A stretch of 64,000 nucleotides of DNA from Actinomycetota bacterium (GTDB lineage Bacteria > Actinomycetota > Acidimicrobiia > Acidimicrobiales > RAAP-2): the NCBI GenBank assembly GCA_029850535.1, contig JARCRU010000037.1:1-64000 (forward strand), read 5' to 3'. Of the stretch, positions 40,962 to 58,692 are shown in pieces (the first letter of the stretch is position 1; every line of letters starts with the position of its first letter). The position numbers and the translations under genes are program-made. The notes under the pieces are model-generated. The model searched no databases, was not told the DNA's origin, and was given only the letters and a program-made list of their open reading frames with translations.

Positions 40962-40978
40962 TGTCTAAACTTCTGGCC

Positions 40979-42814
40979 ATGACCAGTGACATCGCACCTC
41001 AGCGCACCGACGCCGTCCTCCCCGAGTCAAGTTCCCCCGCGAGCGCACGTGGCCGCTCCCTCGACGAGATCCGTTCCTCGAATCCGGGACGTGACGTCCA
41101 GCGAGTCGGTACGGCTCGCTTCCTCGGTCAAGACGTCGGCAAAATCCACGATCCGGTGTGGGCGGTGGTGGGAAACCTCGGCGACAGTCAGTGCTACCTC
41201 GGAGTGAACGAGAAGGTGGCGGCGGTCCAGTCCGCCATGGCGCGGCGCATCAGCGCCGAGGACCTCGCCGTTCGCTTGATCGCTCCCACCTTCACCGTGG
41301 GGGTGTCCGACGGTCAACTCAACGGGACTCCACAGATGCGTTTCTCGCTCATCGGGCGTGAACTGGTGAACGACGCGGTCTCGGTGCACGTGGCCGCCAA
41401 CCAGGTGGCTGGTCTGATCGCGGTGGTCGCGTGCGACAAGCCACCGGTCGGCACGGTGGCGGCGTTGCTCGAGCACAACGTTCCCGCGGTGATCTTGTCC
41501 GACGGATCGATCAAGCCGGGTCGCGACCCCGAGTCGGGGGCGCGCATCGACTTGGTCGACGCCTTCCAGGCGGCGTCGAGCCCCGACGAGGACGCTCGGG
41601 CGCAGATTACGTTGCACGCCTGCCCCGGCCAGGGAAGTTGCGGTGGGATGTTCACCTACAACACGATGCAGAGTTTCATCGGCGTCCTCGGACTCGAGCC
41701 GCTGCACATGGTGGCGCCCACCTCGGACGACCCGCGCCGCGTGGAGACCTTTCCCGACCAATTGGTCGACTGCCTCATCACGATGGCAGAACGAGGCATC
41801 CGTCCGCGCGACATCGTGACGCCGGCGTCGCTGCGCAATGCCCTCACGGTCGCGATCGCGATGGGGGGCTCGACCAACGTGATGCTGCACAGTGTCGAGA
41901 TCGCTCGGGCCGCGGGCTGGGACCTGTGGAACGACGTGCTCAGCCAGGATGAGTTCAACGCCCTCTCGCGCGGCTTGCCGGTCATCGTCAACATGCGACC
42001 ATTCGGGACCTACTCGATGGTCGACGTCGACGCGTCGGGCGGACTCGCGACGGTGGTCAATGAGCTGCTGGCGGCGGGCTACCTCGACGGCACCACGATT
42101 GGCTGCACCGGCGAGACTCTCGCCGAACAGGTGCGGCGTCTCGCGCCGCCCCCCGCGGATCACCGCGTGATCTACTCCCCGTCGCAACCCTTCAAGGACA
42201 CCGGGGGACTGCGACTCCTGCGCGGAAACCTCGCTCCCGAGGGTGGAGCAATATTGAAGTTGGCCGGCGTCGAGAGCGGCATCGTGGACGGCGTCTTCAC
42301 GGGCACGGCGCGCGTGTTCAATAGCGAGCGAGAGCTCATCGCCGCGCTCGACGAGCGTGCCGAGGATTTTCGCGACAACGACATGGTCGTCATCCGCTAC
42401 GAGGGTCCGCGGGGCGCACCGGGTATGCCCGAGATGCTCGACCCCACGTCCAAGATCACGACGATCTGTCGCCAGCGGCGCATCACCATCGCCCTGATGA
42501 CCGACGCACGATTCTCCGGCGGTTCGGTGGGTCTGGTCATTGGTCACGTCGCACCCGAGGCTCTCCTGGGCGGGCCGATCGCTCTGGTGCGCGACGGCGA
42601 CACTATTACGGTCGACGTGAACGAGGACCGGATCGACTGCGCCCAACTCAATGATGCCGACGTCCTCGCCCTACGGGTGGCGCAGTGGGACGCCGCGGTG
42701 TTGGCCCACGGCGGACTGCATCCCGACGCGACACCCGTCGAGCATCGCGTCCTGCGGCGCATGCGCGCCACTGCTCTGCCAGCCCTGCGCGGCGGTGGCA
42801 TGAGCGACCACTAG
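40979..42814 (+). CDS. ilvD: Dihydroxy-acid dehydratase, IlvD/Edd family
   Basis: Fe-S enzyme that dehydrates the dihydroxy acids made by IlvC, the third common step of valine and isoleucine synthesis. The 611-residue protein has cysteines at the three cluster positions (GDSQCYLG, ACDKPPVG, GQGSCGGMF) and the C-terminal RFSGGSVGLVIGH motif. CDKPPVG replaces the usual CDK-x-x-P-G-M, so it belongs to a divergent branch, and a sugar-acid dehydratase is not excluded; proximity to ilvBNC favours IlvD. The ATG at 40979 follows TAAACT (40966-40971) by 7 nt, so the frame further upstream is not used. Confidence 0.88.
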   Translation: MTSDIAPQRTDAVLPESSSPASARGRSLDEIRSSNPGRDVQRVGTARFLGQDVGKIHDPVWAVVGNLGDSQCYLGVNEKVAAVQSAMARRISAEDLAVRLIAPTFTVGVSDGQLNGTPQMRFSLIGRELVNDAVSVHVAANQVAGLIAVVACDKPPVGTVAALLEHNVPAVILSDGSIKPGRDPESGARIDLVDAFQAASSPDEDARAQITLHACPGQGSCGGMFTYNTMQSFIGVLGLEPLHMVAPTSDDPRRVETFPDQLVDCLITMAERGIRPRDIVTPASLRNALTVAIAMGGSTNVMLHSVEIARAAGWDLWNDVLSQDEFNALSRGLPVIVNMRPFGTYSMVDVDASGGLATVVNELLAAGYLDGTTIGCTGETLAEQVRRLAPPPADHRVIYSPSQPFKDTGGLRLLRGNLAPEGGAILKLAGVESGIVDGVFTGTARVFNSERELIAALDERAEDFRDNDMVVIRYEGPRGAPGMPEMLDPTSKITTICRQRRITIALMTDARFSGGSVGLVIGHVAPEALLGGPIALVRDGDTITVDVNEDRIDCAQLNDADVLALRVAQWDAAVLAHGGLHPDATPVEHRVLRRMRATALPALRGGGMSDH

Positions 42815-42881
42815 GACCGTCGCGACACTGGAGACGGAGGGGTTTCCGGGGTCCAAAGTTCGCGACCCCGGTGCGGACGTG

Positions 42882-42910
42882 TTGTGCGTGGTGCGATGCG
42901 TGGCTATATT
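42882..42910 (+). promoter_or_regulatory. Promoter of the ilvBNC leader
   Basis: TATATT (42905-42910) is a good -10 lying 6 nt before the GTG of the leader peptide. TTGTGC (42882-42887) is a partial -35 with a 17-bp spacer. Transcription would start at or within a base or two of the leader peptide start codon. Confidence 0.7.
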
Positions 42911-42916
42911 GGGAGC

Positions 42917-42970
42917 GTGACATTCCGTATATCCATTCTCGAGGTAGTAGTAGGCGCCAGGCGCCGGTAG
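42917..42970 (+). CDS. ilvBNC leader peptide (branched-chain attenuator peptide)
   Basis: A 17-codon frame, VTFRISILEVVVGARRR followed by TAG, rich in the three branched-chain residues: Ile5, Ile7-Leu8 and Val10-Val11-Val12. The Ile5 codon is ATA and all three Val codons are GTA, which are scarce in the GC-rich genes around it, so stalling should be sensitive to the charged tRNA supply. It is leaderless, 6 nt after TATATT, ends 73 bp before ilvB, and an intrinsic terminator lies between. This is the classical layout of a translation-controlled attenuator. Confidence 0.85.
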   Translation: MTFRISILEVVVGARRR

Positions 42971-43019
42971 TCACGCATTGTCGTACACCGGAGGCCTCCC
43001 AAAATGGGAGGCCTTTTTT
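42959..43019 (+). terminator. ilvBNC attenuator: intrinsic terminator and alternative antiterminator
   Basis: The terminator is a 9-bp stem, AGGCCTCCC (42992-43000) with GGGAGGCCT (43006-43014), loop AAAAT, with six T at 43014-43019. A competing helix is possible: AGGC-G-CCGG (42959-42967) with CCGG-AG-GCCT (42988-42997), two 4-bp blocks around a small internal loop. It would mask the 5' arm of the terminator. Its 5' arm overlaps the last codons of the leader peptide, so a ribosome at the leader stop would prevent it, allowing termination. A ribosome stalled earlier, on Ile or Leu codons, would leave it free. Confidence 0.85.
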
Positions 43020-43043
43020 CATATCTAACACCAAAGGATCATT

Positions 43044-44756
43044 GTGCAACTCACCGGAGCGCAAGCCCTCATCAAGAGCCTGGAAATGGAAGGGGTCGAG
43101 GTCATCTTCGGCCTGCCCGGCGGCGCGATTTTGCCCGTCTACGACCCGCTGATCGACTCGAGTATCCGCCACGTACTGGTGCGCCACGAACAAGGTGCCG
43201 GTCACATGGCCGAGGGGTACGCGCTGGCCACGGGCCGCCCGGGCGTCGCCATGGTGACGTCGGGCCCCGGCGCGACCAACATCGTCACCCCCATCGGCAA
43301 CGCGCACATGGACTCGACTCCGCTCGTGGTGATCACCGGGCAAGTCTCCTCGGCCGCCATCGGTACCGACGCCTTCCAGGAGTGTGACATCACCGGCATC
43401 ACGATGGGCATCACCAAGCACAACTTTCTGGTCAAGAGTGCTCACGAGATCCCTCGTGCGGTGGCGGCGGCTTTTCACATCGCCACCACCGGGCGACCCG
43501 GTCCGGTGCTGGTGGACATCCCCAAAGACATCGCTCAGTCGACGATGGAATGGTGGTACCCCGAGAACATCGAGGAACTCGACCTGCCGGGCTATCACCC
43601 CGTCGTCGAGCTGGACACTAACGCCGTTGAGCGGGCCATCGCGCTCATCAAGTTGGCGGAACGCCCGGTGCTCTACGTGGGGGGCGGAACGCTTAAGTCC
43701 CACGCGTCGGCGCAGTTGCGCGCCTTCGCTGAACGCACGGGGATACCGGTGGTGACCACGCTGATGGCGCGCGGAGCCTTTCCCGATTCGCACCCCCAGC
43801 ACCTCGGCATGCCGGGGATGCACGGCATGTACTCCGCGGTGACCGCAATACAGAAGTCGGACCTGTTGATCTCGCTGGGCGCGCGATTCGACGACCGCGT
43901 GACGGGCAAGATTCCGTCGTTCGCCCCCAACGCCAAGGTCATCCACGTCGACATCGACAAGGCCGAATTCAACAAGGTGCGCGCCGCGACCGTGGCGATC
44001 CGCTCGAACGTGGCCGCCGTCCTCGAGGCGTGGGACGCCGCCGAGGCGATGCCCCAGAACCTCGAGGTCTGGTGGAAGGAGATCGACGCCTGGCGTGAAG
44101 CGTATCCCCTAGTCTACGACGAGCCGAGCGACGAGGGTCTCCTGCGACCGCAATTCGTCATCGAGTCCATTGCTCAGGCCGCTCAGCCCGGCACCATCGT
44201 GGCGTCGGGTGTCGGTCAACACCAGATGTGGGCCTCACAGTTCTGGAAGTTCGAAGAGCCCGGCACCTGGGTGAACTCCGGGGGAGCGGGCACCATGGGT
44301 TTCGGCGTTCCCGCGGCCATTGGTGCCAAGGTGGGGCGGCCCGATCGCGTGGTGTGGTGCATCGACGGTGACGGGTGCTTCCAGATGACCGCCCAGGAAC
44401 TGGTGACGGCACGGGCCGAGGGGATCCCCATCAAGGTGGCGATCCTCAACAACGCCTACCTGGGCATGGTGCGCCAGTGGCAAGAGATGTTCTACGACGA
44501 GCGATACTCCGAGGTCTACCTCTCGCCCGACCTGCCTGATTACGTCAAGTGGGCCGAGGCGATGGGGTGCGTGGGGCTGCGTGCGACGAACATCGAGGAG
44601 ATGCACGCCGCCATCGCCACCGCCAATTCGATTCACGACGTGCCCGTCGTGATCGACTTTCGCACCGACTCCTCGGAGAAGGTCTTCCCGATGGTCGCCG
44701 CGGGAGCGAGTAACGACGACATCATGGTCCACCCCCTGCAGAGAGAGTCCAAGTGA
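43044..44756 (+). CDS. ilvB: Acetolactate synthase large (catalytic) subunit
   Basis: ThDP- and FAD-dependent enzyme that joins two pyruvates, or pyruvate and 2-oxobutyrate, in the first common step of branched-chain synthesis. The 570-residue protein has the ThDP glutamate in [15 protein letters not shown], the segment [13 protein letters not shown] and the ThDP-binding [15 protein letters not shown]...NN motif. The GTG start at 43044 has an AAAGGATC ribosome site, unlike the leaderless leader peptide upstream. It heads ilvBNC under the attenuator. Confidence 0.97.
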
Positions 44757-45307
44757 ACAGCCCCGAACCTTTTCTCGGCGCCACCAGCCACACGCCGGTG
44801 CGTCACCACATCCTCTCGGTCCTGGTCGAGAACAAGGCGGGCGTGTTGGCGCGTGTCGCGGGTCTCTTCGCGCGACGTGGCTTCAACATCTATTCCCTGG
44901 CGGTCGCTCCGGCTGAGACGAAAGCGCGTTTCTCGCGCATCACCATTGTCGTCGACGCGGAGTCCGCGCCCCTGGAACAGATCGTCGAGCAGCTCGACAA
45001 GCTGGTCAACGTGGTCGCCATCTCGGACCTCGCCCCCAAGGACGCGCTGGAGCGTGAACTCCTGCTCGCGACGATCAAGACCAACGTGGATAGTCGGACG
45101 TCGCTGCTCGACGTGGTGGGCACTTCGGGTGCGGCCATCGTGGACGTCGACGCGGGTTCGGTGACGCTGATGCTGGCGGGTACTCCGGCGGCCTGCGACG
45201 AGCTCGAGCGCGAACTCGAGAATTACACCACGATTGAATTGCATCGAACCGGCCGCGTCGCACTCCCTAGACTTGGCAAAGCGGCTACGGCCACCATCCC
45301 CGACTGA
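44753..45307 (+). CDS. ilvN: Acetolactate synthase small (regulatory) subunit
   Basis: A 184-residue regulatory subunit giving valine feedback and activating IlvB. An N-terminal ACT domain ([29 protein letters not shown] region) is followed by the typical C-terminal domain. The GTG overlaps the ilvB stop as GTGA. The family name is IlvN/IlvH. Confidence 0.95.
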
Positions 45308-45324: not shown

Positions 45325-46359
45325 ATGACCACGATGTACTACGAAGCCGACGCGCAGCCCGAACTGCTCCAGGGTAAGAAGATCGCGATTCTCGGTTACG
45401 GATCGCAGGGCCACGCCCACGCCCTCAACCTGCACGACAGCGGTTACGACGTGCGCGTCGGACTGCGCCCCGAGTCCTCATCGGTCATCAAGGCCGAAGA
45501 CGCGGGACTGCGCGTGCTCTCCATCGCCGACGCCTGCGCCGAGGCGGACGTGATCATGGTCTTGGTGCCCGACACCGAGCAAAAGCGCACCTACGACGAG
45601 TCCATCGCTGCGCACCTGACGGCGGGCAAGTGCCTGCTCTTCGCGCACGGTTTCAACATCCGCTTCGACCTCATCAAGCCCCCGGCCGACGTCGACGTCG
45701 CGATGGTGGCGCCCAAGGGTCCCGGTCACCTCGTGCGTCGCACGTACGTCGAAGGCGGGGGAGTGCCGGCGCTGATCGCCGTGCACCAGGACGCCACTGG
45801 CCACGCCAAGGGCATCGCCCTCGCCTACGCGCACGGCATCGGTGCCACGCGAGCCGGCGTGCTCGAGACCACCTTCACCGAAGAGACCGAGACGGACCTC
45901 TTCGGCGAGCAGGCCGTCCTCTGCGGCGGCGTCTCGGCGCTGGTCAAGGCGGGTTACGAGACCCTGGTCGAAGCCGGATATCAGCCCGAGAGCGCGTACT
46001 TCGAATGTTTGCACGAACTCAAGTTGATCGTCGACTTGATGTACGAAGAGGGCATCACGGGTATGAGATTCTCGATCTCGGACACCGCCGAATACGGTGA
46101 CCTCACTCGAGGACCGCGCATCATCACTGACCAGGTCAAGGCCGAGATGAAGAAGGTGCTCACCGAGATCCAAGACGGCACCTTCGCGGCCGAGTGGGTC
46201 AAGGAGAACGAGATCGGACGCCCGCGCTACCGCGAACTGCGTGACGCGGGCAAGAAGCACCCGATCGAGGACATCGGCAAGAAGTTGCGCGCCATGATGC
46301 CCTTCGTCTCGGCGGGTAAGCAGAAGGTCTCCGAGTCCTCCGGCGGCGACACCGACTGA
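45325..46359 (+). CDS. ilvC: Ketol-acid reductoisomerase
   Basis: Second common step: isomerises and reduces acetolactate or acetohydroxybutyrate with NADPH and magnesium. The 344-residue class I enzyme shows the Rossmann motif [27 protein letters not shown] and the metal-binding segments ([22 protein letters not shown]). It lies 17 bp after ilvN. Its TGA is separated by a single base from the stop of the convergent gene. Confidence 0.98.
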
Positions 46360-56855: not shown

Positions 56856-56883
56856 TGGACACGAGGCGCGCGCGCGGTACAAT
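56856..56883 (+). promoter_or_regulatory. Promoter of the leuA leader
   Basis: TGGACA (56856-56861, 5 of 6 to TTGACA) and TACAAT (56878-56883) with a 16-bp spacer. The -10 ends 6 nt before the GTG of the leader peptide, so the transcript should begin at or near that codon. The divergent 49-residue protein gene has its own -10 at 56839-56844. Confidence 0.75.
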
Positions 56884-56889
56884 GTACAC

Positions 56890-56924
56890 GTGACTATCCG
56901 AAACCGCGAGCTCCTTCTTCGATA

Positions 56925-56925
<1 letters not shown>
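56890..56925 (+). CDS. leuA leader peptide (leucine attenuator peptide)
   Basis: An 11-codon frame, VTIRNRELLLR then TAG, with three consecutive leucine codons CTC-CTT-CTT at 56911-56919. CTT is uncommon in the GC-rich genes nearby. It is leaderless (6 nt after TACAAT) and is followed within 25 bp by a hairpin with a T run and then leuA. This is the expected layout of a leucine-sensing attenuator. It shares the initial V-T and a basic end with the ilv leader, which may be chance. Confidence 0.85.

Positions 56926-58692
<1,767 letters not shown>

Follow-up and report, generated by a model that had tools for sequence, protein, structure and literature searches.

The analysed window, a stretch of 64,000 nucleotides, belongs to a genome of 2.48 Mb in 146 contigs and contains, on the forward strand, three consecutive genes assigned by NCBIfam: ilvB, encoding the acetolactate synthase large subunit (43044-44756; GTG start with AAAGGA upstream), ilvN, encoding the acetolactate synthase small subunit (44753-45307), and ilvC, encoding ketol-acid reductoisomerase (45325-46359). 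Directly upstream of ilvB lies a short open reading frame (ORF) with a run of Ile, Leu and Val codons, and an intrinsic terminator is present between this ORF and ilvB, as in actinobacterial IlvL-type attenuators. The leader peptide ORF, ilvL (42917-42970, forward strand; MTFRISILEVVVGARRR), extends from a GTG start to a TAG stop at 42968-42970, is presumed to be leaderless and comprises 17 codons, translated as M T F R I S I L E V V V G A R R R. Its Ile codons are ATA and ATT, and all three Val codons are GTA. The first-pass annotation had described a 17-codon ORF with Ile, Ile-Leu and Val-Val-Val, using ATA and GTA codons, a description that holds when the sequence is read again from GTG 42917 to TAG 42970. 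Upstream of the leader, an ilvD-like dehydratase gene (40976-42814) scores 408.5 bits, compared with an NCBIfam ilvD cut-off of 618.15, and could be either a diverged form of IlvD or a dehydratase related to it.

Relatives of the leader were identified with a covariance model derived from an alignment of 21 leaders, with the terminator pairs as its only structure; this alignment omits L015, L022, L023 and all later loci except L024. The model matched 94 of 172 family genomes, including 88 of the 99 within the genus and 6 of the 73 in the rest of the family, and 46 of 298 genomes in a sample of the order, 8 of these 46 being members of the genus. The peptide is carried by all 88 genus loci (86 recognised by script, L176 and L191 by eye), and in L191 the terminator falls in a gap of N. 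Conservation of the branched-chain codons in relatives, proposed as a check when the leader was first noticed, is thus observed in every matched locus of the genus. Among the 11 genus genomes lacking a model match, nine gave no ilvB at an E-value of 1e-100 or better and the remaining two presented a partial ilvB only, and in one of these two a gap of N falls on the leader; these misses do not contradict a genus-wide leader. Removal of one duplicate from the 86 script-recognised leaders left 85 distinct sequences. Extra weak matches to the model were observed elsewhere in two same-genus genomes, G082 and G154 (L197, L198 and L199; E-values of 1e-5 to 8e-5), and may represent bare terminators. 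In a further same-genus genome, G126, the genus-type leader (L176) precedes a truncated ilvB, and a second ilvB on another contig (L201), whose protein is 80% identical to that of the window, lies behind a different branched-chain amino acid (BCAA) leader, MIPTRLLLVLRT. The upstream DNA of this second copy is 90% identical to L060, and the copy may be acquired, chimeric or misbinned.

Of 81 ilvB upstream regions from across the class, 72 contain a hairpin that a loose script called terminator-like, and most contain a BCAA-rich ORF. Since such hairpins and ORFs are found where the model misses, the attenuator device seems to be class-wide but too divergent for a genus-built model. In the more distant Acidimicrobiia L023, L028, L031, L044, L046 and L053 the BCAA run is located right at the stop codon (e.g. 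LVVVT*, LVLVS*), and in L023 and L028 a hairpin was recognised by eye just past the leader stop. The genus-type antiterminator described below is not obvious in these distant loci, where the switch may work differently.

The codons of the run are unusual. The three control codons GTA GTA GTA (Val-Val-Val, 42944-42952, forward strand) are rare codons in genes of the window but prevail in the 85 leaders: GTA accounts for only 3 of 198 Val codons (1.5%) in five window genes and for 203 of 261 Val codons (78%) across the same-genus leaders. An ORF with at least five Ile, Leu or Val in six residues arose in 22 of 2000 dinucleotide shuffles of the window upstream region, and in 3 of 2000 when a correctly spaced -10-like box was also demanded. 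Across the class, an ORF with at least four such residues in six was present in 63 of 76 ilvB upstream regions versus 112 of 1520 shuffles; when a -10-like box in front was also required, the figures were 45 of the 76 versus 15 of 1520 shuffles. These 76 regions are the 81 above without L015, L022, L027, L058 and L062, with the window included.

The putative promoter comprises a -35-like element, TTGTGC (42882-42887), located 17 nt from a -10-like element, TATATT (42905-42910), both on the forward strand. Six bases separate the latter from GTG 42917, in agreement with the initial statement that the peptide begins 6 nt past the -10. Under a loose definition, in which a -10-like box begins with T or C, has A at position 2 or 3 and ends in T, a hexamer ending 5-8 nt before the start was identified in 79 of the 85 distinct leaders, compared with 12% of mononucleotide shuffles, and the combination of this box with TTG near -35 in 72 of 85, compared with 1.8%; T at -35 itself is present in 82 of the 85. 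A generic sigma-70 scan of the window leader called 0 promoters, and the promoter assignment in the window therefore rests on conservation. The leader start codons are GTG in 82 and ATG in 3 of the 85 leaders, having been reassigned by hand to the codon behind the promoter in L012, L020, L179, L182 and L183. No Shine-Dalgarno word of at least 4 nt precedes the leader start in 75 of the 85 leaders; at the ilvB starts such a word was found in 73, was lacking in 10, and in two cases the start itself was not found. The spacing suggests that transcription begins at, or within ~1 nt of, GTG 42917.

The intrinsic terminator (42992-43019, forward strand) displays a stem formed by 42992-43001 and 43005-43014, an AAA loop and a run of six T at 43014-43019. 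The first-pass annotation had reported a 9-bp hairpin followed by six T; the T run was correctly described, and the stem has 10 contiguous pairs, or 12 counting two G-U pairs. It is the single terminator-like site in 42700-43200, where shuffles have a mean of 0.2, and segment 42981-43018 folds at -21.3 kcal/mol (z -4.2). The covariation score of the terminator alignment was matched by 0 of 500 shuffles, with pair types not in excess, so that the outcome is mostly positive. The predicted antiterminator (42959-42997, forward strand) pairs AGGC 42959-42962 with GCCT 42994-42997, CCGGT 42964-42968 with ACCGG 42987-42991, GT 42970-42971 with AC 42985-42986, and ACG 42973-42975 with CGT 42982-42984. 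It overlaps both the end of the leader ORF and the 5′ arm of the terminator, with which it competes for a common GCC. The folding energy of region 42957-42998 is -17.0 kcal/mol (z -3.2), in line with the earlier suggestion of a competing antiterminator that overlaps the end of the peptide. When antiterminator arms were swapped between leaders, own arms gave -17.3 and swapped arms -15.5 kcal/mol, with 0 of 5000 permutations as good, in a test that ignores relatedness. The GCC of the terminator is engaged by the fold in 85 of 85 leaders, but also in 54% of shuffles, and column-wise pair counts on the alignment revealed no excess covariation for the antiterminator.

A third candidate structure, the anti-antiterminator H1 (42917-42974, forward strand), would sequester the leader start codon by pairing it with nucleotides at the leader stop, in a start-codon clamp (GTGAC 42917-42921 with GTCAC 42970-42974), and contains a second helix of GGCGC 42953-42957 and GCGCC 42961-42965. 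Its fold energy is not exceptional (42917-42976, minimum free energy (MFE) of -15.9 kcal/mol, z -0.8). The clamp appears in the MFE structure of 72 of the 85 leaders and is missing from 13, compared with a frequency of 31% after shuffling of the 3′ arm, and the arm-swap test, which again ignores relatedness, gave -7.0 for own and -6.4 kcal/mol for swapped arms (0 of 5000 permutations as good). Column-wise pair counts on the alignment showed no excess covariation for H1 either, and helix sliding between sequences perhaps accounts for this neutral outcome in both structures. As the swap test ignores relatedness, the predicted antiterminator and H1 are supported, not proven. The ORF and its codons, together with the potential to form these structures and their conservation, can be read in the DNA directly. 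When 42957-43018 is exposed by masking the 5′ part, the energy minimum keeps the full terminator alongside the upper antiterminator. The terminator is thus favoured by energy alone, and antitermination would therefore have to be kinetic, with the antiterminator forming first via its lower stem of 3-4 pairs.

These features are very probably explained by attenuation of ilvBNC transcription through a ribosome that translates the leader peptide from a leaderless 5′ end, although it is from the sequence that we infer the 5′ end, the stalling, which structure forms when, and the read-through. A ribosome would load on the 5′ end and translate toward the clustered Ile and Leu codons and the rare GTA codons for Val. 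With charged tRNAs it would reach the stop codon and mask the antiterminator 5′ arm, upon which the terminator forms and transcription stops. A ribosome stalled on the control codons would cover the 5′ side of H1 but not the 5′ arm of the antiterminator; the latter structure would then tie up the GCC(T) of the terminator, allowing RNA polymerase to read on into ilvB. In the absence of a ribosome, H1 would form and hide the start codon, leaving the terminator free (default off). Assuming an occlusion of 26 nt centred on the codon, as reported for the ribosome in PMC13236596, a ribosome on the first GTA would cover ~42932-42957 and one on the stop codon ~42956-42982, to be compared with the antiterminator 5′ arm at 42959-42975. 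It counts against the model that the lower stem of the antiterminator would be occluded by a ribosome positioned at the third GTA. It is conceivable, though rather doubtful, that the start clamp additionally acts as a one-ribosome gate, whereby only a pioneer ribosome loading before ~58 nt have been made would report the amino-acid supply, after which GTGAC/GTCAC would lock the 5′ end in the default off state. In that case leaderless initiation would have been retained because it serves the switch as a timer, and would not be an accident of actinobacterial promoters.

Other explanations differ from this attenuator in the 5′ end, in the sensor or in the role of the hairpin. Attenuation might be real on a leader mRNA that is not leaderless, with a start further upstream or at an in-frame ATG (42896) and ribosomes loading on a normal 5′ UTR. 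A longer ORF from that ATG is indeed possible and the generic scan did not call the proposed promoter; the general lack of Shine-Dalgarno words and the preserved -10 spacing nevertheless make this arrangement distinctly unlikely, and the ATG sits upstream of the -10-like box. As a leader start ATG 42896 was rejected, being absent from the two closest relatives, L002 and L003, where other in-frame GTG or TTG codons lie further upstream. It is also unlikely, if slightly less so, that the peptide is translated without codon-specific stalling being the sensor, read-through following general translation or another signal. The role of the codons has been doubted in Streptomyces coelicolor, where changes to the ilvB leader codons are reported to have had no effect on regulation (PMC1262725), whereas in Corynebacterium glutamicum valine-dependent expression is described as abolished by Val-to-Ala changes (PMC11857589), and the retention of rare GTA at 203 of the 261 leader Val positions in the genus likewise argues for a codon-based sensor.

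Control of the terminator by a metabolite riboswitch, a ppGpp riboswitch or a T-box, with the ORF incidental, is highly implausible: the 5′ region is structured and a terminator is present, as such an element would have it, but the frame and the BCAA run are preserved in 88 loci. A search of the window with the 4227 families of Rfam 15 (riboswitches, T-box and leader families) returned no match at gathering score, on which ground a riboswitch or T-box was rejected; four matches in 42800-43150 lie far below the gathering scores and were judged to be chance. Hardly any probability remains for a hairpin that terminates the upstream ilvD-like gene, accompanied by a short ORF arisen by chance. The end of that gene at 42814, ~180 nt upstream of the hairpin, is compatible with such a role, but BCAA-dense ORFs behind a -10-like box are far more frequent at class level than in shuffles, and promoter, ORF and terminator remain together across the genus.

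The same window contains, at 56878-57015, a second leaderless-looking leader, rich in Leu and located before leuA (2-isopropylmalate synthase, 57016-58692). TACAAT is followed after 6 nt by an ORF extending from GTG 56890 to TAG 56925 (MTIRNRELLLR*), with a hairpin directly past the stop and a GC-rich terminator. Among 30 same-genus leuA loci, including that of the window and drawn from the 40 of 41 genomes that gave a match, the short ORF behind the -10-like box ends in Leu-Leu-Leu in 27, in Leu-Leu in 2 and in neither in 1. No Trp-containing short ORF was identified in the 300 nt before the trpE family match of the same genome, as counted from the edge of the match.

The leader of the window is a real, conserved and probably working attenuator. 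Leaderless branched-chain attenuation is a known kind of regulation, of which this leader would be a new member, in Acidimicrobiia. Literature searches found no paper combining Acidimicrobiia with leader peptide and attenuation, and no mention of Acidimicrobiales among the matches listed. The original reading of leaderless BCAA-leader attenuation is supported by conservation in relatives, but the coupling of amino-acid sensing to leaderless initiation, of which no well-described case for this lineage had been known to it, is not new in view of precedents in C. glutamicum, Streptomyces lividans and mycobacteria. Leaderless leader peptides in C. glutamicum are said to have been described by Neshat et al. 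in 2014. The present locus would add another class of Actinomycetota to Corynebacterium, mycobacteria and Streptomyces as bearers of leaderless amino-acid attenuation. Acidimicrobiia branch far from these three groups, and the presence of the device in this class too hints at an ancient origin within the phylum. With its 88 leaders, the genus offers a comparative set for studying how rare GTA codons and a leaderless start evolve together with the three alternative hairpins.

Comparison with characterised systems reveals both shared and distinct properties. The ilvB1 uORF of Mycobacterium tuberculosis, within a leader of 166 nt, is described as displaying LVVI regulatory codons that include GUA, an antiterminator/terminator pair and ribosome occupancy (PMC13236596), resembling the organisation proposed here. 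Mycobacterial cysteine-rich uORFs (PMC4633059) and leaderless polycysteine attenuators (PMC9031893, citing Canestrari et al. 2020) are likewise reported, the latter also sensing an amino acid through a leaderless short ORF; they differ in responding to cysteine and in the genes concerned. In S. lividans, the IlvL leader of ilvBHC is a 13-residue BCAA peptide, reportedly transcribed leaderless and followed by hairpins and a U-rich stretch, as is proposed here, although the peptide itself, MRTRILVLGKRVG, differs (PMC8079986). The overall plan is shared with C. glutamicum ilvBNC, whose transcript starts one nt from the leader start codon and where mutations of the Val codons and of the start codon alter expression (PMC11857589, reporting Morbach et al. 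2000). Its 15-residue IlvL, MTIIRLVVVTARRLP, which belongs to the Corynebacterium ilvB-II motif, contains LVVVTARR, with VVV followed by ARR as in the window (PMC11857589; PMC10272879), and its leader is described with three competing hairpins of the kind predicted here (an anti-antiterminator hiding the start, an antiterminator and a terminator) upstream of ilvBNC (PMC11857589). In contrast, the window leader belongs to the class Acidimicrobiia, starts with GTG, has no Rfam match and has a 5′ end that is predicted from sequence, and its start codon lies 127 nt from ilvB compared with 292 bp in C. glutamicum. The GGC/GCC switch is located here at GGC 44-46 and GCC 78-80, counted from the start codon; in C. 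glutamicum GGC 36-38 pairs with GCC 77-79, numbered 76-78 in one legend (PMC11857589). For C. glutamicum, boundary switching through the GCC trinucleotide was proposed (PMC11857589), and the kinetic antiterminator predicted here would operate by the same boundary switching.
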